A model generated the notes under the pieces. That model worked only from the letters and a program-made list of their open reading frames with translations. It was not told where the DNA came from and made no database searches. From a bacterium (GTDB lineage Bacteria; UBA4055), in assembly GCA_029559475.1 (NCBI GenBank), contig JAKQBN010000008.1, positions 1 to 42,938 on the forward strand: a stretch of 42,938 nucleotides of DNA, written 5' to 3'. Of this stretch, positions 10,906-24,241 are shown piece by piece (the first letter of the stretch is position 1; each line of letters opens with the position of its first letter). The position numbers were made by a program, and so were the translations under genes.

Positions 10906-11850
10906 ATGACTGACGATGAATTTAAAGTATCAATAATCATAAACGCGAACAACGCGGAAGAAACTCTTTTCAGATGTCTTGATGCGGTGATGGCTATCGA
11001 TTATCCGAAAGATCTTTATGAAGTCCTTCTTATAGATAACGGATCGACAGACAGAACGTTCAGAATCGCCTCGGGTTACAGTATAAGGCTGATCGGAACA
11101 AGAAAACGGTTAAAAAATTCCGATTCTATGATGACAGGCGCACGGCATTCCGGGTTTGAAAACCTTCTTTTTCTGGATCAGAAGACAATAGTAAAGAAAG
11201 ATATCCTAAATAAACTTAAAGAACTGAATAATTCGCCGCTCATTTCCGGCGAACTTAACGTAGATAAATACAGATCAGGCCACGATACTTTTATGTTCCT
11301 TATAAGTTCAAGGTTGTACAGCCCGCACTTTCCGCAGAGCGCTTACGGAAAGGAATTATGGATAACGAAGAAAAATTTTAAAAAGGTCAGCAAGAATAAA
11401 GCGCTTCTTTTCATAAGCAAAGATTTTTTTAATAAACTTCATGAAACCGGATTTGATTATAATAACGGAAACGACGACTTATTCAGGAAGATCATATTCG
11501 ATCACAACATGAGAATACTTTCTCACACCGAAATCGATGTGGAGTATATCGGCGAATTAAAAGTAAAGACGAACAGGGAGATCGTCGAGAACGGTTACCG
11601 GTGGGGTAAAAGATATCTTTCAAATTTCAATGCCTTTTCATTCATATACTATATGATCCATATAGCTATACTTGTGATCGTGATTATGTATACGAACATA
11701 GCTTTTCTTGTTTTTGTAGCTCTTTATCTTTCCTTTCTTCTTTATCTTTCAAGGTCGAAAAAAGATTTCTGGATCCTGTTTAAAGTAGCACCGGCAGAGA
11801 TAATCAGGTTTTACAGTGGAACGATTAAATATATAACGAACAGATCATGA
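10906..11850 (+). CDS. Family 2-like glycosyltransferase with C-terminal membrane segments
   Basis: The 314-residue protein has a GT-A nucleotide-binding start: VSIIINANNAEETLFRCLDA (8-27) and VLLIDNGSTDRTF (40-52). The usual DxD metal site appears as LDQK (90-93), lacking the second Asp. Later GNDDLF could supply the acidic catalytic residue. Two membrane helices lie at about 240-285. It probably transfers a sugar to a lipid- or glycan-linked acceptor at the inner membrane face, but the altered DxD leaves activity uncertain. It overlaps the next membrane-protein gene by 4 bases (ATGA). Confidence 0.82.
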   Translation: MTDDEFKVSIIINANNAEETLFRCLDAVMAIDYPKDLYEVLLIDNGSTDRTFRIASGYSIRLIGTRKRLKNSDSMMTGARHSGFENLLFLDQKTIVKKDILNKLKELNNSPLISGELNVDKYRSGHDTFMFLISSRLYSPHFPQSAYGKELWITKKNFKKVSKNKALLFISKDFFNKLHETGFDYNNGNDDLFRKIIFDHNMRILSHTEIDVEYIGELKVKTNREIVENGYRWGKRYLSNFNAFSFIYYMIHIAILVIVIMYTNIAFLVFVALYLSFLLYLSRSKKDFWILFKVAPAEIIRFYSGTIKYITNRS

Positions 11851-13532
11851 AAAACAATACACTGTTTAACGTAGCCGTTTTCGTTTTTTTTCTAGCTGTT
11901 TACGTAATTTTCTCGAATCAGAGGATAACTACGTCGATGGATGTCGATGTTCTCAGGTATGCATCAGAATACGTTGAGACCGGAAATTACGGCTCTGAAT
12001 ATAAGATAGCTTCAGGTGTAGCATACAGCCCGAAAACAGGCATGTTCTATCCTCAGGAAGGTATCGGGATAGTTGTCCCTCTTTCAGTGTTCGTATATCT
12101 GTCTAATATTATAAATCCTGAATCGCAGTTCGTCATTTTCACGTTCAATCAGTTTTTTTCTGCGCTGGCGGTTCTATTTGTGTTCCTTATACTTTCTATG
12201 TTCATGCCTAAAAAGAAAGCTTTTTTTTATACAGCTTTATTCGGTCTCGGTACACCGCTTTTCGTTCATTCAAAATATCTGCTGCCTGAGCCGGTCACTC
12301 TTTTCTCTATAATCTCCGCATTGTATTTTATGCTCAAATTCAGGAGAACAGGAAAACCTGTATTGGTATTCTTATCAGGGCTCTCAGCCGGATATTCGCT
12401 TCTTACAAGGCCGGATGCACCAATATTCGCAGGCATATTCTTTATTCTGGCCGTATATGTTTCTTTCAGAACTGATAAGATCAGATTAATGAAAAACAGC
12501 CTTTTTCTTATCGCAGGATATAGTATTTTCACCTTTGTGTTTTTCGTGTCAAATTACCAGAGATACGGTTCAGTACTAGAAACCGGCTATACACTTGACC
12601 GAAAAACTGTAATATCGTCTCTAGAGCGTGATATTCCTCTTATTTACGATAAGGCTGTAAAGGCTTATCAGGCAGATCAGAGTTCAGAAGAAACAGCGCT
12701 TTATGTAAATAAATACCAGTCAATGCAGAAATTCTTGGAGGACCAAAATAAGATAATCAAGGATATCGGAGACAAGAATACAAATTTCTACTCAAGCGGA
12801 CCAGCAAACTTTTTTTACGGATTATATCTGATCTTTATTTCACCGAACAGGTCGATATTGTTTATTTCTCCGTTTTTGATCATGCTGATCATAGGAATAC
12901 CTTTAATATTAAAAAAGTATAAAATCGAGTTTATTCTCGTTTCGACGATATTTTCAGGATATTTAATTCTGTATGCGCTCAGAGCTCCGCTGAGCTATGC
13001 CGGAAGCGGGGCATGGGGTATCAGATATATGCTTCCCGTTTATCCACTTATTTTTCTTTCAGTGATTTTTTTTGACCGATCTGAATTGTTTAGAAATAAG
13101 GCTGTAAAGTACACATTCTACGCACTCTGCGTGATATCGTTCATTTTCCAGATAATCGGATCGAGTGTAAATTATCAGTCGGTTCAGATGCCTCTTGAAT
13201 ACAAATGCAAAAAGATCTATGGCGAAGCCGATATGACATGGGCGCATGAATCAAGATTGAGCATGATGACGGATTTTTCAAGCTCACTTCTGCTTAATAA
13301 CTCAAGGATTTTAACCGGAAGTCTTACAGATGAACAGAGTGAGTACGGAGTAGAGACCGGACCGAACGACTGGTTCTTCTGGCAGGTCATAAAAGGCGAA
13401 GGACAGCTTGTTAATGGGAAAGAACGTTCAATGGGAAATTTTAAGGTTCTATTGTTCCTTCTTATTGTTTCCGCGGCAGGATCGCTTTATTACATTTTCA
13501 AATCAGATATTATGAAACCGATAAAAAAATGA
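11847..13532 (+). CDS. Polytopic membrane protein, GT-C (family 39/83-like) glycosyltransferase candidate
   Basis: The 561-residue protein has roughly ten to twelve hydrophobic helices. The first extracytoplasmic loop carries acidic residues (TSMDVDVLRYASEYVE, about 30-45) and a PEGIG-like segment, the placement expected of the catalytic Asp in GT-C enzymes that use lipid-linked sugars. A soluble insertion lies at about residues 250-310, before further helices. ORF overlap with the family-2-like transferase upstream and the methyltransferase downstream suggests a shared glycan or lipid pathway. The family call rests on topology, not on a diagnostic motif. Confidence 0.7.
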   Translation: MKNNTLFNVAVFVFFLAVYVIFSNQRITTSMDVDVLRYASEYVETGNYGSEYKIASGVAYSPKTGMFYPQEGIGIVVPLSVFVYLSNIINPESQFVIFTFNQFFSALAVLFVFLILSMFMPKKKAFFYTALFGLGTPLFVHSKYLLPEPVTLFSIISALYFMLKFRRTGKPVLVFLSGLSAGYSLLTRPDAPIFAGIFFILAVYVSFRTDKIRLMKNSLFLIAGYSIFTFVFFVSNYQRYGSVLETGYTLDRKTVISSLERDIPLIYDKAVKAYQADQSSEETALYVNKYQSMQKFLEDQNKIIKDIGDKNTNFYSSGPANFFYGLYLIFISPNRSILFISPFLIMLIIGIPLILKKYKIEFILVSTIFSGYLILYALRAPLSYAGSGAWGIRYMLPVYPLIFLSVIFFDRSELFRNKAVKYTFYALCVISFIFQIIGSSVNYQSVQMPLEYKCKKIYGEADMTWAHESRLSMMTDFSSSLLLNNSRILTGSLTDEQSEYGVETGPNDWFFWQVIKGEGQLVNGKERSMGNFKVLLFLLIVSAAGSLYYIFKSDIMKPIKK

Positions 13533-16300: not shown

Positions 16301-17485
16301 ATGAATATATTTACTTTTTTAAAGCTGATACGCATGATATACGGCAATAGGCCGGATATAGACAAGATACAGAAAATGGGACTTCTGGCAGTAAAGATCG
16401 GTCAGGTTCACGCTCTCAGGATAGATTTTCTGGACGAAAAAACCTGTATCGAACTTTCAAAGCTCTACCGTGCCAATACTCCCATTAAGACCGAGGATGC
16501 TCTTAAAAATATCGACAGGTCGAAGTATTCGCACATTGATGAAGTACCCTTGGCAACAGCATCGGTAGGTCAGGTTTATAAAGCCAGGCTCGTTTCAGGC
16601 GAGGATGTAGTTATAAAGATCATAAAAGCCGATTTCAAAAAAAGATTCGAAAAGGACGTGAAAGCTGTAAAGAGGCTGTTCAGGTTTGTGATATTTTTTT
16701 ACCCGAAGCTTGCGAGGGTGTTTGATCCGATAGGCATTCTTGAGCATATCGAAGAATATACTTTAAGAGAAATGAATCTTTTGAACGAGATCGAAGGGCA
16801 CGATATACTTAGGAAAATTTATGAAGAGAACAAAGGTAAATACGATCTATCGATGATGTCGTTCCCTAAAATATACAAAGAACTCTCATCGGAAAATGTC
16901 ATGGTCTCGGAATTTATACCCGGAAAGACTTTTGATGAAATATTAGATACCGAAATGAAATATGAAGATCTTCTTCTGCTATTCAAACTTCACGGATTCT
17001 TCATGTTCAATATAGGCACATTTCACGGTGACATTCATCCCGGCAATCTGATGGTCTGCTGCGGAAAGATATATTTTGTTGATACAGGCGCTATAGGATA
17101 TGTCAGCAAAAGGCTCAGCCGCGGACTTTTAAATTTCTTTGACGCTTTATCTCAGTATGATTACGATATGTGCGCACAGAGGCTTAATGAAATGGCCGAA
17201 ACTTCCATTTCCGGCGAAAAATATGAGAAATTCAGAAAGAAATTCCATGTGCTTTATGCGGACTTTAATGGAAAGAGCGTGAAAGAAGTGTCTCTAACTA
17301 AGAAAATGATGGAAACTATCAAGCTCGGGGTCAACTGCGGAATGGGATTTGAAAAAGGCATGTTCTCAATCATTAAAAGCCTGATGTTTTTGGACGGCAT
17401 GGTGCTTAGGTGCAAGCCTGACGCGGTACTATTGGAAGATATGAGGCAGTTCGTTTCAGAGTTCAAAAAAGCGGAGGTAAAATGA
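16301..17485 (+). CDS. Second ABC1/UbiB-like kinase, short form
   Basis: The 394-residue protein is a shorter ABC1 relative. It retains KIGQ (32-35), the alanine-rich loop LATASVGQVYKA (84-95), lysine K106 in VVIK and the catalytic FHGDIHPGN (241-249). The metal-binding motif is DTG (261-263) instead of DFG, and the C-terminal membrane helices of the larger paralogue are absent. The metal ligand Asp is kept, so ATP binding is plausible. The stop overlaps the start of a small membrane protein that could anchor it. Context suggests it acts on the isoprenoid or lipid product of this operon. Confidence 0.9.
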   Translation: MNIFTFLKLIRMIYGNRPDIDKIQKMGLLAVKIGQVHALRIDFLDEKTCIELSKLYRANTPIKTEDALKNIDRSKYSHIDEVPLATASVGQVYKARLVSGEDVVIKIIKADFKKRFEKDVKAVKRLFRFVIFFYPKLARVFDPIGILEHIEEYTLREMNLLNEIEGHDILRKIYEENKGKYDLSMMSFPKIYKELSSENVMVSEFIPGKTFDEILDTEMKYEDLLLLFKLHGFFMFNIGTFHGDIHPGNLMVCCGKIYFVDTGAIGYVSKRLSRGLLNFFDALSQYDYDMCAQRLNEMAETSISGEKYEKFRKKFHVLYADFNGKSVKEVSLTKKMMETIKLGVNCGMGFEKGMFSIIKSLMFLDGMVLRCKPDAVLLEDMRQFVSEFKKAEVK

Positions 17486-18854: not shown

Positions 18855-19652
18855 ATGAAAGATTACGCAGAAATAGCTAAGACCATCAGAAGAGATATCA
18901 TTGAGATGATCTTCGCAGCTGGATCAGGTCATGCGGGAGGATCACTGAGTCTGGCTGATATTTTTGCCGTGCTGTACTTCGGAGAAATGAATCACGATCC
19001 TTCCAGACTTCAGTGGGAAGAAAGGGACAGACTTATTCTGTCAAAAGGACATGCCGCGCCTGTGCTGTATTCAGCACTGGCGAGAAGCGGATATTTCGAT
19101 CCGGATAATCTGAAAACGCTGCGAAAAACCGATTCTTTTCTCGAAGGCCATCCGGCTATGAAGACACCCGGCGTTGAAGTCGGAACAGGTTCGCTCGGTC
19201 AGGGACTTTCAATAGGCTGCGGACTCGCGGTTTATTTCAAAAAAAGACAGACTTCACAGCGTGTTTTTGTGATCTTAGGAGACGGCGAGCTTCAGGAAGG
19301 GCAGAACTGGGAAGCCTTCATGTTCGCCGGTCATAACAAGCTGAATAATCTGACCGCCGTGATCGACTTAAACGACCTTCAGATAGACGGGAATGTATCG
19401 GAAGTCAATACGATCGAACCTATAGCAGATAAAATGAAAGCTTTCAACTGGAATTATGAAGCGATTGACGGACATAACATTGATCAGATCCAGAATGCAT
19501 TTAAAAATGCAAGGCTTTCAGAAAAGCCTTTTGCGGTCATTGCCAAGACGGTAAAGGGCCGTGGGGTTTCATACATGGAGAACAGGGCGGAATGGCACGG
19601 AAAACCGCTGAATAAAGAAGATCATGATAAAGCTATGAAAGAACTATTATGA
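18855..19652 (+). CDS. Transketolase, N-terminal (TPP-binding) subunit
   Basis: The 265-residue protein covers the TPP pyrophosphate-binding half of transketolase. It shows GHAGGSLSLADIFAVLYF (25-42), SKGHAAPVLYSAL and the GDG...N metal motif GDGELQEGQNWEA. Split transketolases (N and C halves as separate genes) are common in anaerobes and archaea. The C half follows with an ATGA overlap. It transfers two-carbon ketol units between sugars in the pentose phosphate pathway. The placement beside KAS III and ACP genes also allows a specialised C2-transfer role. Confidence 0.93.
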   Translation: MKDYAEIAKTIRRDIIEMIFAAGSGHAGGSLSLADIFAVLYFGEMNHDPSRLQWEERDRLILSKGHAAPVLYSALARSGYFDPDNLKTLRKTDSFLEGHPAMKTPGVEVGTGSLGQGLSIGCGLAVYFKKRQTSQRVFVILGDGELQEGQNWEAFMFAGHNKLNNLTAVIDLNDLQIDGNVSEVNTIEPIADKMKAFNWNYEAIDGHNIDQIQNAFKNARLSEKPFAVIAKTVKGRGVSYMENRAEWHGKPLNKEDHDKAMKELL

Positions 19653-20593
19653 CAGATATTAAAGAAGAAAAGACCGCCAACAGGTTCGGCTACAGTGATG
19701 CGCTTCTTGACCTTATCGAAATAGATAAGAATATCATAGCTCTCGACGCAGATCTGGCAAAATCAACCACAACTTTCAGGATAAAAGAAAAATATCCCGA
19801 CAATTTTATAGATGTGGGGATAGCAGAACAGAACCTGATCGGGATAGCCGCTGGATTATCACTGAACGGGCACATTCCTTTTGTTTCAACCTACGCTGCT
19901 TTTGTAGCAGGGCGAGCTTTCGACCAGATAAGAACGACAGTATGCTATTCAAATTTAAATGTGAAACTTGCGGGAATGCATGTCGGCATTACCGTAGGCG
20001 CGGACGGTCCGACCCATCAGATGCTCGAGGACATCGCTCTTATGCGCGTACTTCCGAACATGATAATTCTAAATCCTTGCGATGTGAATGAAGCCTATAA
20101 TGCTACAGTTCAGGCGTATAAACATAAAGGACCTGTTTATATCAGATTCGTCAGAGAAGCAACGCCTATACTGACTTCTCGCGAAGACGAATTCGTAATC
20201 GGTAAAGCAAAGATCCTCAGGCAGGGAAAAGATATAACCGTTGTTTCATCGGGACAGATATTATCTAATGTTATTGAAGCATGCAAGATGCTAGAAAAAG
20301 AAGGTTTTGATATTGAGCTGATTAATGTTCATACGATTAAACCGCTTGATGTTAAATGTATAGCTGATTCAGTCAGAAAAACAGGAAAGCTTTTCGTAGT
20401 TGACGAGCATCAGATCCACGGAGGATTGGGAACTGCCGTTTTTGAAGCTCTGATGCTGGAGAACATTCAGGTTAGATCAGGTATTATCGCTGTAAATGAT
20501 ACATTCCTTACTTCAGGTTCGCCGGATGAACTTCTGGAGAAATATGGTTTTTCGTCAGTTGCTGTTAAATATAAAATTCAATCATTTTATTAA
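19649..20593 (+). CDS. Transketolase, C-terminal subunit
   Basis: The 314-residue protein carries the pyrimidine-binding domain, with the activating Glu in FIDVGIAEQNLIGIAAGL and the FVSTYAAFVAGRAFDQIR segment. A transketolase C-terminal domain follows (VVSSGQILSNVIEACKML). It forms the active site jointly with the subunit just upstream. Together the pair is a complete transketolase of about 580 residues, slightly shorter than the single-chain form of about 660. Lack of sequence for other TPP acceptors (no lipoyl domain nearby) argues against a dehydrogenase. Confidence 0.93.
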   Translation: MTDIKEEKTANRFGYSDALLDLIEIDKNIIALDADLAKSTTTFRIKEKYPDNFIDVGIAEQNLIGIAAGLSLNGHIPFVSTYAAFVAGRAFDQIRTTVCYSNLNVKLAGMHVGITVGADGPTHQMLEDIALMRVLPNMIILNPCDVNEAYNATVQAYKHKGPVYIRFVREATPILTSREDEFVIGKAKILRQGKDITVVSSGQILSNVIEACKMLEKEGFDIELINVHTIKPLDVKCIADSVRKTGKLFVVDEHQIHGGLGTAVFEALMLENIQVRSGIIAVNDTFLTSGSPDELLEKYGFSSVAVKYKIQSFY

Positions 20594-20614
20594 TTAATAA
20601 AAGATAAATATTAC

Positions 20615-20643
20615 TTTACTTTGTGCGGAATGATGCTTAAATT
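20615..20643 (+). promoter_or_regulatory. Promoter for the KAS III-SDR-ACP-GNAT group
   Basis: TTTACT (20615-20620), 17 bases and TAAATT (20638-20643), about 22 bases before the KAS III ATG. This short leader fits a strong GGAGG site at 20654-20658. It would let the acyl genes be expressed apart from the transketolase pair. Confidence 0.5.
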
Positions 20644-20665
20644 TTAGAATTATGGAGGTTCCCTG

Positions 20666-21622
20666 ATGACAGCAGGTATCAAAGCAATAGAGTATTATCT
20701 CCCGGAAAAAGTTCTTTCAAACGATGAACTATCGTCGGTTTTTCCTGATTGGACACCCGAGAAGATATTTGAAAAAACCGGAATCAGGAACAGGCATATA
20801 TGTCAAGATGATGAATGCGCCTCTGACCTGGCTGTAAAAGCCGCAGAAAAACTGTTTATTTCGGGAGCGATAAGTAGAAAAGATATTGATTTTTTAATTC
20901 TTGCCACGCAGACACCGGATTATATATTGCCGACTACCGCCTGTATGATTCAGGACAGGCTCGGATTGCCTAAAACCTGCGGGGCTTTTGATTTTAATCT
21001 GGGATGTTCAGCTTTCGTGTACGGTCTTGCAGTATCAAAAGGACTTATAAGCGCAGGCATAGCCAGAAATATTCTTTTTATTACTTCAGAAACATACTCA
21101 AAACATATAAATCCATTGGATAAAAGTACAAGAACAATATTCGGAGACGGTGCAGCAGCGGTTCTAGTATCTGAAGGAGGTCATATTTTAGGCGAGTTCG
21201 ATCTATGTACGGACGGAAGCGGTTACGATAAGCTGATCATACACTCAGGCGGAGCACGGAAAGCAGGATCCAAAGATGATCTGTATATGTCAGGTACGGA
21301 TATATTCAATTTTACCATATCGGCAGTTCCAGAAAGTGTTGGCACAGCTTTAAGAAAAAACGGTCTGAATATCTCCGATATAGATGTTTTCGTTTTTCAC
21401 CAGGCGAATAAATTCATGCTTGACTACCTTCGTAAAAAGATCGGAATACTGGAAGATAAATTCATTATAGATATTGAGGATACAGGCAATACAGTATCGT
21501 CTACCATACCGATAGTTCTGAAAAGATCAGAAGAAAAATGTTTGATAAAGAAAGGATACAAAGTTCTGATATGCGGTTTCGGTGTCGGTCTGTCGTGGGG
21601 TTCGGCCGTGATCGAATGGTAG
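20666..21622 (+). CDS. 3-oxoacyl-ACP synthase III-like enzyme
   Basis: The 318-residue protein is a FabH-type thiolase-fold enzyme. The catalytic triad is visible as C114 in NLGCSAFVYG, H245 in FHQAN and N275 in DTGNTVSST, so it should condense or transfer acyl groups. KAS III enzymes start fatty acids from acetyl-CoA and malonyl-ACP; paralogues in accessory clusters make hydroxyacyl or branched groups. It is followed by an SDR and an ACP, not by the usual fabD/fabG/acpP set. The ATG has a GGAGG site. The accessory setting makes the housekeeping fabH role less likely. Confidence 0.9.
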   Translation: MTAGIKAIEYYLPEKVLSNDELSSVFPDWTPEKIFEKTGIRNRHICQDDECASDLAVKAAEKLFISGAISRKDIDFLILATQTPDYILPTTACMIQDRLGLPKTCGAFDFNLGCSAFVYGLAVSKGLISAGIARNILFITSETYSKHINPLDKSTRTIFGDGAAAVLVSEGGHILGEFDLCTDGSGYDKLIIHSGGARKAGSKDDLYMSGTDIFNFTISAVPESVGTALRKNGLNISDIDVFVFHQANKFMLDYLRKKIGILEDKFIIDIEDTGNTVSSTIPIVLKRSEEKCLIKKGYKVLICGFGVGLSWGSAVIEW

Positions 21623-21633
21623 CTTATAATATT

Positions 21634-21640
21634 AAGAGGG
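21634..21640 (+). promoter_or_regulatory. Shine-Dalgarno that decides the SDR start
   Basis: AAGAGGG lies 5 bases before the ATG at 21646. It excludes longer in-frame starts at 21538 and 21616, which run inside the KAS III gene. Confidence 0.6.
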
Positions 21641-21645
21641 ATCAA

Positions 21646-22392
21646 ATGCTAAATCCTATGGATATGACAGGAAAGCTGATAATTGTGACCGGAGCATCTG
21701 ACGGAATAGGCCGGGCAGCAGCTTTACATCTAGCTATGCTTGGAGCAAAGACAGTACTGATAAGCAGAGATGTTAATAAACTCAAGTTAATATCGGAAGC
21801 ATTAGGAAAGAATCCTCATAAAATCTATCCCTATGATCTTACTGATTTGGAGGGTATTGAGGATCTGATAAGAACAATATCCGAAGAGAACGGCAAAATA
21901 GACGGGATGGTACATTGCGCAGGAGTATCACCGATGATGCCTTTAAAAAGCACAAAATACGATCTTTTCCACAATACTATGCTGATCAATTTTTACGCTT
22001 TCGCGGAACTGGTAAGATGCGCAGGAAAAGCAGCGAACTGCAATGACGGGGCGAGTTTTCTGGCTGTATCGTCAGTTTCTTCGGTCAAAGGTAATAAAGC
22101 ACAAAGCGCTTATGCAGCTTCGAAGGCAGCAGTCTCGGGAGTTATAAAGCCTATGGCAAAGGAACTGTCATCAAGAGGGATCAGAGTAAATTCCGTACTG
22201 TTCGGAATCATCAAAACAGGTATGTACGAAAAGTTTTTGGAACAGGGTGGAGATATGTCCTTATGGAACGGGCAGTATCTTGGACTAGGGTCTCCTGAAG
22301 ATGCCGCGAATGTAATATCATTCCTGTTAAGCGATGCTTCAAAACTGATAACCGGGACAGATCTGATCGCTGACGGTGGATATTTATCATAA
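21646..22392 (+). CDS. Short-chain dehydrogenase/reductase
   Basis: The 248-residue classical SDR has the NAD(P) motif TGASDGIG near the N-terminus and the catalytic Ser in AVSSVSSVKG. The YxxxK pair is in SAYAASKAAV, and the C-terminus carries the usual DGGY. It is closest in style to FabG-like ketoreductases, so it could reduce the 3-ketoacyl product of the upstream KAS III. The substrate is inferred only from context. The ACP gene starts 18 bases after its stop. Confidence 0.92.
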   Translation: MLNPMDMTGKLIIVTGASDGIGRAAALHLAMLGAKTVLISRDVNKLKLISEALGKNPHKIYPYDLTDLEGIEDLIRTISEENGKIDGMVHCAGVSPMMPLKSTKYDLFHNTMLINFYAFAELVRCAGKAANCNDGASFLAVSSVSSVKGNKAQSAYAASKAAVSGVIKPMAKELSSRGIRVNSVLFGIIKTGMYEKFLEQGGDMSLWNGQYLGLGSPEDAANVISFLLSDASKLITGTDLIADGGYLS

Positions 22393-22410
22393 ATTTAACT
22401 GAAGGATAAA

Positions 22411-22629
22411 ATGGAAACATCAGACAAGATCAGGCTTCTTGAAGAAATGTTGGAGCTGAAGAACGGTACTTTAAATGAAAGCACTGCGCTAAAAAGTATC
22501 CCGGGCTGGGATTCTATGGCGGCACTATCTCTGATAGCTTTATGCGACGAAAAATTTCACAAAAAACTTAGTGGCGATAAAATACTCAGTTTCATTACTG
22601 TTAAAGATATTACTGATTTTATGGGCTGA
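22411..22629 (+). CDS. Acyl carrier protein
   Basis: The 72-residue protein is a divergent acyl carrier protein. The attachment serine is S35 in the motif GWDSMAAL, preceded by a four-helix-type charged N-terminus (METSDKIRLLEEML). It carries acyl groups on a 4'-phosphopantetheine arm. The motif has GWDSM instead of the fatty-acid ACP DSL, which suggests a specialised carrier, as in small biosynthetic clusters. An AAGGATAAA ribosome site precedes it. No dedicated phosphopantetheinyl transferase is seen nearby. Confidence 0.87.
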   Translation: METSDKIRLLEEMLELKNGTLNESTALKSIPGWDSMAALSLIALCDEKFHKKLSGDKILSFITVKDITDFMG

Positions 22630-22639
22630 AAACCTCGCT

Positions 22640-23518
22640 ATGATCGAACTTAAGAAAGCTTATCCCGATGACATCGGAAGAATAATTCCACTTCTTTATG
22701 ACGAATTCGGCCTCGAGAAAATGAGTGGAAGAAGACTGGAAAGACAGAAAGAGTCTTTTAGAAAACTGTTCGGAATACACTGGAATTCAAAGCAGGATCA
22801 TATCGGCTATATTCTGGAAGAAGATAAAAAAATAAGCGGTTTTATAGCTTATATTTTCTCCGAGAGAATGATCTTGGATAAAATATACAAATTCTGCAAT
22901 ATGTCAGCCTGGGCTGTTCGCAAAGGATCAAGATCATCCGCTCTTTCTCTGACTATGCCTGTAAAAGAACTGATAGAAGAAGGATATACCATAACGAATC
23001 TTTCTCCATCGCCGTCTGCTTATGATGTTTTCAGAAAGCTTCACGGGTTTAGAGATCTTGAAACTCATTATATATTGATCCCCTATATTCCCAGCGTATC
23101 CAGAAGATCATCGGTGAGCGTAAGTATTAATGAAGAAGTAGAACTGTCAGGGGTAAGTGATTTCGTAAGAAAAAATTATGAAGATTCTGCGCCTTACGGA
23201 GCTCAGATGCTTCATATTAGAACAAGCTCCGACAGCTGCAGTGTAATTTTTAAAAAAACATACTATAAAAGGTATATTCCTGCATCTGGTATTTTGTTCG
23301 TAAGCGATCCTGAAGTGTTTATAAAAAACATACAGCTTCTTCGCAGTGTGATAAACAGAAAGTCCGGCACAGCAGTTATGATTACGGATTCAAGATTTAT
23401 AAACGGAAAAAATATCAACTTCAGCTATGTAAAGAAAATGCACAATCCGAAGCTTTTTTGGTCAGAACGGTTTGAAAAAGATCGGATAGACAATCTTTAC
23501 TCTGAAAACCTTTTATAA
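22640..23518 (+). CDS. GNAT-like acyltransferase
   Basis: The 292-residue protein starts with a GNAT-like fold: MIELKKAYPDDIGRIIPLL (1-19), a central strand pair GYILEEDKKISGFIAYIFSE and a later NLSPSPSAYDVFRKLHGF region. The GNAT pyrophosphate-binding loop is not obvious, and the protein is longer than a single domain. It may contain a second degenerate acyltransferase half. The ATG at 22640 follows the ACP stop by 10 bases; longer in-frame starts run into the ACP gene. It likely releases or transfers the acyl group carried by the ACP. The 3' end overlaps the convergent deacetylase by 6 bases. Confidence 0.65.
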   Translation: MIELKKAYPDDIGRIIPLLYDEFGLEKMSGRRLERQKESFRKLFGIHWNSKQDHIGYILEEDKKISGFIAYIFSERMILDKIYKFCNMSAWAVRKGSRSSALSLTMPVKELIEEGYTITNLSPSPSAYDVFRKLHGFRDLETHYILIPYIPSVSRRSSVSVSINEEVELSGVSDFVRKNYEDSAPYGAQMLHIRTSSDSCSVIFKKTYYKRYIPASGILFVSDPEVFIKNIQLLRSVINRKSGTAVMITDSRFINGKNINFSYVKKMHNPKLFWSERFEKDRIDNLYSENLL

Positions 23519-24241
23519 AATCCCTGCTCTTATTAAGTTCTCTTTTATGTACCTTTTTAAAAGCTTTATATGAAGTTTGCATTCGCATTTTTTTTTGAAT
23601 GTATTAAGATCGTCCTTAGGCTCAACTTCTATCCTTCTTAATTCGTACAGGTATTTTATTCTGTTAGAAATCCCGTATCTTGTCGAAAAAGCCGCGTCAT
23701 ACCCGCATTCCTTCAGTTTCTTTACTGAGAATTGAGAGTAATCGTTGATCTGTCCGAAAGGATAGCTGAAATATCTGACAGGTTTTGCTGTGCGTAAATA
23801 AATTTCATTTTTAGAATCAATAAATTCAGATATCACTTCAGATTCGGATAATCCGGAAAGCCGTTTATGGGATCTTCCATGTGATCCGATCTCAACAAGA
23901 TTTTCATTACTGATTTCAGTTATACTGTTCCAGCCCATTATCCTGATCTTTTCCTTCGTATCCCATACATTATATTTACCTACATGGTCAGATGGAACGA
24001 AAAGAAGGGCAGGCAGGTTCAATTCTTTTAAAACAGGATAGAACAGTTCAATAAAACTAGTGTAAGCGTCGTCGATCGTAATTAGTACATTTTCTTTTTC
24101 GCTATCAAGCTGCTTTATGTAATCTTCCGCATTTAAAACTGTAAAATTATCTTTAATATAAACTATCTGACGCTTAAGTTCGTCCAAGGACACAGTATTA
24201 AAACCGGCCTTCTCGCCAATATTGTGATACATGAGAATCAT
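23513..24241 (-). CDS. Polysaccharide deacetylase (NodB-type)
   Basis: The 242-residue protein has the NodB start MILMYHNIGE, motif 1 TIDDAYTS (where the usual TFDDG has lost Gly) and motif 2 SHGRSHKRLS, the metal-binding HxxxH. Later it has YFSYPFGQIND. It would remove acetyl groups from N-acetylated glycans or modify lipid-linked sugars. There is no signal peptide, so it likely acts at the cytoplasmic face or on a precursor. The start overlaps the alaS stop (ATGA). It is the last gene of the holB-alaS transcript. Confidence 0.87.
   Translation of the reverse strand: MILMYHNIGEKAGFNTVSLDELKRQIVYIKDNFTVLNAEDYIKQLDSEKENVLITIDDAYTSFIELFYPVLKELNLPALLFVPSDHVGKYNVWDTKEKIRIMGWNSITEISNENLVEIGSHGRSHKRLSGLSESEVISEFIDSKNEIYLRTAKPVRYFSYPFGQINDYSQFSVKKLKECGYDAAFSTRYGISNRIKYLYELRRIEVEPKDDLNTFKKKCECKLHIKLLKRYIKENLIRAGIL

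Follow-up and report, generated by a model that had tools for sequence, protein, structure and literature searches.

Does the split transketolase of this locus belong to the same pathway as the acyl-carrier genes that follow it, and what would those genes make? The question is raised by the window, a stretch of 42.9 kb that forms one contig within a 2.28-Mb genome (92% complete). The original prediction read the KAS III, SDR, ACP and GNAT-like genes as a carrier-protein set, possibly fed by the transketolase pair and possibly decorating a glycan. We find an ordinary neighbour, the transketolase, beside a known kind of widespread acylation cassette; the carrier-protein part of the prediction stands and the transketolase link does not. 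The unusual part is the transferase only, a putative GNAT-fold protein of two halves that belongs to no named family, is paired with a deacetylase and sits in place of a VioB/NeuD-type enzyme.

Table 1. Features of the transketolase–acyl gene region, in coordinates of the window.
Feature	Position	Strand	Evidence or remark
Transketolase N-terminal subunit, ThDP-binding	18855-19652	+	Pfam PF00456 1.4e-55; outside acyl cassette
Transketolase C-terminal subunit	19649-20593	+	PF02779 and PF02780; outside acyl cassette
Inserted block, 3644 bp	20594-24237	none	Between transketolase C and alaS; empty in G003
KAS III, cassette-type, VioS-like	20666-21622	+	Triad C114/H245/N275
SDR, 3-oxoacyl-ACP reductase-like, VioR-like	21646-22392	+	Catalytic Ser, Tyr156, Lys160 as in FabG
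Dedicated ACP	22411-22629	+	Predicted phosphopantetheine site Ser35 in GWDSM
Two-half putative GNAT-fold protein, proposed ACP-dependent N-acyltransferase	22640-23518	+	Homologues at 24–42%; Foldseek on low-confidence model
Polysaccharide deacetylase PF01522	23513-24241	-	DD and HxxxH metal motifs

All six genes of the prediction were recovered at their coordinates (Table 1), with the SDR start placed at the ATG at 21646 (mechanical ORF 21538) and that of the GNAT-like gene at the ATG at 22640 (mechanical ORF 22571), both of which better fit the homologues. The KAS III triad is intact, as predicted, aligning with C112/H244/N274 of Escherichia coli FabH, and the ACP is indeed divergent (20.5 bits against a Pfam PP-binding cut-off of 20.8) but nonetheless genuine, with Ser35 kept in the aligned relatives. 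The prediction ended before a convergent polysaccharide deacetylase gene, which is a member of the same inserted block and runs 4 bp into the end of alaS. The promoter proposed at 20615 was not recovered: a consensus scan of the 72-bp gap (20594-20665) found neither a promoter-like nor a terminator-like site there, and the 19 promoter matches over the region are at chance level (16.6 ± 3.2 in shuffled sequence). Elsewhere in the window lie two ABC1/UbiB-type atypical kinases (448-2139 and 16301-17482) and, adjoining a family 2 glycosyltransferase, a 561-aa protein (11847-13532) that matches no Pfam family but is related (39%) to one encoded downstream of alaS in G011 (L157 9184-10965).

By their gene order, the KAS III, SDR, ACP and GNAT-like genes form a unit. 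Specifically, the related genome G008 carries KAS III, SDR, ACP and GNAT genes, a convergent deacetylase and alaS in the order of the window, at identities of 71, 60, 65, 41, 57 and 75%, respectively. Another relative, G007, carries a KAS III, a second KAS III, an SDR and an ACP, with a VioB/NeuD-type transferase (160.6 bits against the TIGR03570 cut-off of 160.8) where the window has the GNAT-like gene. To look more widely, we scanned genome contigs with a KAS III alignment, since the seven-row GNAT alignment was too divergent to serve as the query, and kept the best 80 matches to conserved KAS III peptides, a sample of this clade and not of all KAS III; setting aside two sister genomes left 78 loci, which are partly related and include many Bacteroidales. 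Within 3 kb of the KAS III, an ACP was found in 68 of these 78 loci, an SDR in 66, a VioB/LbH-type acyltransferase in 41 and a VioA-type aminotransferase in 20, and 49 have an unbroken same-strand run of ACP, SDR and KAS III; these counts rest on BLAST against a small reference set and on mechanical ORFs, which can miss genes that are small or divergent and may have left some labels loose. For example, a Paenibacillus locus (L072) combines an aminotransferase, an LbH transferase, KAS III, SDR, ACP and glycosyltransferases, and L071 and L073 also have a malonyltransferase-type gene. As to whether the neighbours travel together, the ACP and SDR accompany the KAS III in most of the 78 loci, and a transketolase lies within 3 kb in none (0/78).

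Second KAS III genes, mostly 34–40% identical to the first, occur within 3 kb in 21 of the 78 loci (e.g. L040 9096-10184, L071 10975-12108, L018 9263-10364), and nearly all fall on a branch of their own in the tree; the window has only one KAS III. In the Burkholderia glumae record such a second copy is unannotated and split over two overlapping frames. A further contig of G007 (C56) has another KAS III (36–38%) about 3.4 kb from a 48% relative of the window deacetylase (L043 9156-10139, 13506-14231).

What such a cassette might make is suggested by the viosamine island of Pseudomonas syringae pv. tabaci (vioS, a KAS III; vioR, a reductase; acp; vioB), where flagellin carries Qui4N with an N-3-hydroxybutyryl group and where this modified sugar is missing from strains that lack vioR, vioA, vioB or vioT (PMC3927599). 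Like this island and its homologues orfB–orfE of P. aeruginosa PAK, the window has a KAS III outside FabH with an intact triad, an adjacent SDR and small dedicated ACP, and an acyltransferase; unlike them, its transferase is GNAT-fold and not of the VioB/NeuD family (TIGR03570), no vioA, vioM or vioT lies alongside, and a deacetylase is added. Similarly, a B. glumae plasmid carries flagellin genes, vioA, a KAS III (46% identical to that of the window), an ACP, an SDR and an acetyltransferase, and polysaccharide loci in Bacteroidota, Bacillota, Chlorobiota and further groups (L071–L148) hold cassettes that share the KAS III clade, the dedicated ACP and the SDR, many with LbH or other transferases in contrast to the GNAT of the window.

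We consider it probable that the genes at 20666-23518 form a small cassette that makes an acyl group and attaches it to an amino sugar of a surface glycan, and that the transketolase pair takes no part in this. The KAS III would condense malonyl on the dedicated ACP with a short acyl starter (acetyl being the most likely) to give a 3-oxoacyl-ACP. Reduction by the SDR would yield a 3-hydroxyacyl-ACP, with 3-hydroxybutyryl as the likeliest acyl group; the putative GNAT-fold protein would then move this group from the ACP to the amino group of a sugar destined for the glycan, an amino group that the convergent deacetylase may free by removing N-acetyl. A C4 3-hydroxyacyl amide on an amino sugar is our best guess for the product because of the viosamine island and the B. 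glumae plasmid set, the chain length being taken from these precedents. Support for a glycan-decorating set comes from the KAS III clade and the co-travelling neighbours; the earlier argument from upstream glycosyltransferases is weak, as some 9 kb that include housekeeping genes separate the cassette from the only upstream glycosyltransferase with a Pfam match. Counting against this reading, no sugar aminotransferase or VioB gene adjoins the cassette in the window (two DegT-family sugar aminotransferase genes are on other contigs), the proposed transferase has neither a family name nor a confident model, and the same gene pattern could yield another 3-hydroxyacyl or 3-oxoacyl group. We found little published work on 3-hydroxybutyryl O-antigen clusters.

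The transferase deserves separate treatment. Its position in the cassette suggests that the GNAT-like protein takes the place of VioB. The protein itself has no Pfam or NCBIfam match, and a distant homologue (L022) passes the Acetyltransf_1 cut-off (1.2e-8); homologues at 19–42% identity come from G008 and from plasmids of Alphaproteobacteria and Acidobacteria. A three-sequence model of low confidence (mean pLDDT 54.7) has GNAT topology in its first half, which the second half resembles in pattern, and Foldseek matched this low-confidence model to Eis-type and single-domain GNATs in the PDB (E down to 6e-7). A single-sequence model (pLDDT 32.5) was useless and was discarded, and comparison with the GNAT beside the G007 cassette gave no convincing homology. 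Family members were found neither within 3 kb of the KAS III in the 78 loci (from the best 80), nor in the phage collection, nor in 396 genomes around a locus in an Acidobacteria MAG (a search run without a positive control), nor in two viral-contig scans with single GNAT proteins; a viral-contig scan with an alignment query found one, L149.

The homologues keep company that bears on function. In Sinorhizobium and Rhizobium (T136), genes for an exosortase-A-type acyl ligase, an ACP and a deacetylase come after the GNAT homologue, and a PLP decarboxylase was also read in the Rhizobium set; in Aureimonas, the genes after the homologue are a ligase and a decarboxylase, and an ACP is close by. These exosortase-A-associated plasmid sets (TIGR03098) share with the window a homologous GNAT (24–30%), a dedicated ACP and, in the rhizobia, the polysaccharide deacetylase, but their acyl group is made by ligase and decarboxylase, whereas in the window KAS III and SDR would make it. 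A gene annotated as a deacetylase, without a Pfam match, adjoins the homologue in Sulfitobacter, and in Paludibaculum an annotated deacetylase lies three genes away. The recurring pairing of GNAT and deacetylase is suggestive only, because deacetylases are common in polysaccharide loci. The arrangement recalls rhizobial Nod factor synthesis (NodA, NodB, NodE, NodF and NodG), in which a deacetylase frees an amine, a KAS, a reductase and a dedicated ACP build the chain and an N-acyltransferase attaches it; the likeness drawn here is one of logic, and NodE differs from the window KAS III in being of KAS II type and serving long chains. We tentatively hypothesize, as a possibility on the doubtful side, that the two-half GNAT-fold family is an unrecognized kind of amino-sugar N-acyltransferase that depends on acyl-ACP and acts together with a deacetylase (acetyl removed, then reacylation), is fed by differing acyl modules (in the window the KAS III with the SDR, in rhizobia a ligase with a PLP decarboxylase), and converges on the NodB/NodA logic with unrelated parts.

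The alternative that survives best, though we regard it as unlikely, is that the short acyl group goes to an acceptor other than a sugar, for instance an amino acid, a peptide, a polyamine or another small metabolite. Over its full length, the GNAT model best matches two-domain acetyltransferases of the Eis type, and its single-domain matches include aminoglycoside and polyamine acetyltransferases; a halogenase and an adenylate-forming enzyme adjoin one of the GNAT relatives, and no glycosyltransferase adjoins the cassette in the window. However, sugar aminotransferases, VioB-type transferases and glycosyltransferases are neighbours of related KAS III cassettes, and the window deacetylase shares its inserted block with the cassette and also lies beside it in G008, which favours the amino-sugar reading.

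A second alternative takes the KAS III, SDR and ACP as a spare set for fatty-acid synthesis, with the GNAT and the deacetylase as unrelated passengers; the KAS III does pass the cut-off of a general NCBIfam FabH-like subfamily (NF006829). The tree, as the original prediction had proposed to examine, places it outside housekeeping FabH: the cassette KAS III rows split from FabH with SH-aLRT 96, and the window protein groups with Delongbacteria and Bacillota cassette rows, in a quick tree without bootstrap in which E. coli FabH is on a long branch. Residues agree with this split. At the position of FabH W32, the clade has K in 78 of 81 members and K, R or N in all 81, and it uniformly (81/81) has L at F87, F or Y at R249 and V at G306; the window protein has K33, L88 and F250 at the positions of W32, F87 and R249, residues that all eight FabH rows retain. 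In E. coli FabH, W32 and R151 hold the CoA adenine and R249 helps dock the ACP. With W32 and R249 as CoA and ACP contacts, their replacement would fit a different, dedicated ACP partner, a compatibility short of proof. The actual fabH of this genome is on another contig (C4) beside plsX, fabD and fabG, neighbours that the cassette gene lacks. This separate set, the KAS III clade and the five genes kept in order and orientation in G008 at 41–71% identity make the spare-gene explanation improbable. One feature of the KAS III counts against the acylation-cassette reading: its active-site loop (about residues 193-210; FabH 192-209) has 18 residues compared with 31–35 in most of the clade, though E. 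coli FabH has the same length.

As for the transketolase pair, we conclude from synteny and canonical residues that it is a normal metabolic enzyme without a role in the acyl pathway, the simple housekeeping that the original prediction had offered as its alternative. The closest solved chain to the N subunit is the N-terminal component of a split-chain transketolase (PDB 6yak), and the window pair is of the same kind with no notable difference: ThDP and sugar-phosphate residues are present, R358, S385, E411, H461, D469, H473 and R520 of E. coli TktA are all kept in the C subunit, and the sole change among the residues checked, F434 to Tyr, is conservative. A second, full-length transketolase is encoded on contig C4. 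Relatives of the pair in G007 (81%), G011 (65%) and G005 (about 90%), and the pair in G003, lack the acyl block beside them; in G005 a threonine aldolase precedes the pair, as in the window, and a C10 peptidase comes next. In the sister genome G003 (L158), transketolase C and alaS are convergent across a 9-bp gap with nothing between, and this empty site suggests that the acyl cassette was inserted as a block between the pair and alaS. The G008 contig ends exactly where the transketolase would be expected, and the absence of the pair there was not counted. The junction is variable, because other genes, including Fib_succ_major proteins, flank alaS in G009 and G007. With its empty state in G003 and a Fib_succ_major protein in G009, the junction (20594-24237; alaS 3′ flanks L154–L158) resembles a small insertion hotspot. 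A single five-gene pathway, in which the pair would load the ACP with a C2 ketol unit, giving glycolyl-ACP for the KAS III and SDR to extend, as in the tetrahydroisoquinoline antibiotic pathways, has in its favour the adjacent same-strand position and intact catalytic residues of the pair, but is largely refuted and now highly improbable given the empty site, the four relatives without an adjoining acyl block, the absence of transketolase from the 78 loci and the 72-bp gap before the KAS III (vs a 4-bp overlap within the pair), and we dropped it on the synteny evidence.

The analysis separates a chance neighbour, the transketolase, from a real and very widespread acylation cassette. For annotators, K at the position of FabH W32, L at F87 and F or Y at R249 are marks by which cassette KAS III can be told from FabH. 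Should the GNAT family be the transferase, amino-sugar acylation in several phyla would gain a new enzyme type.
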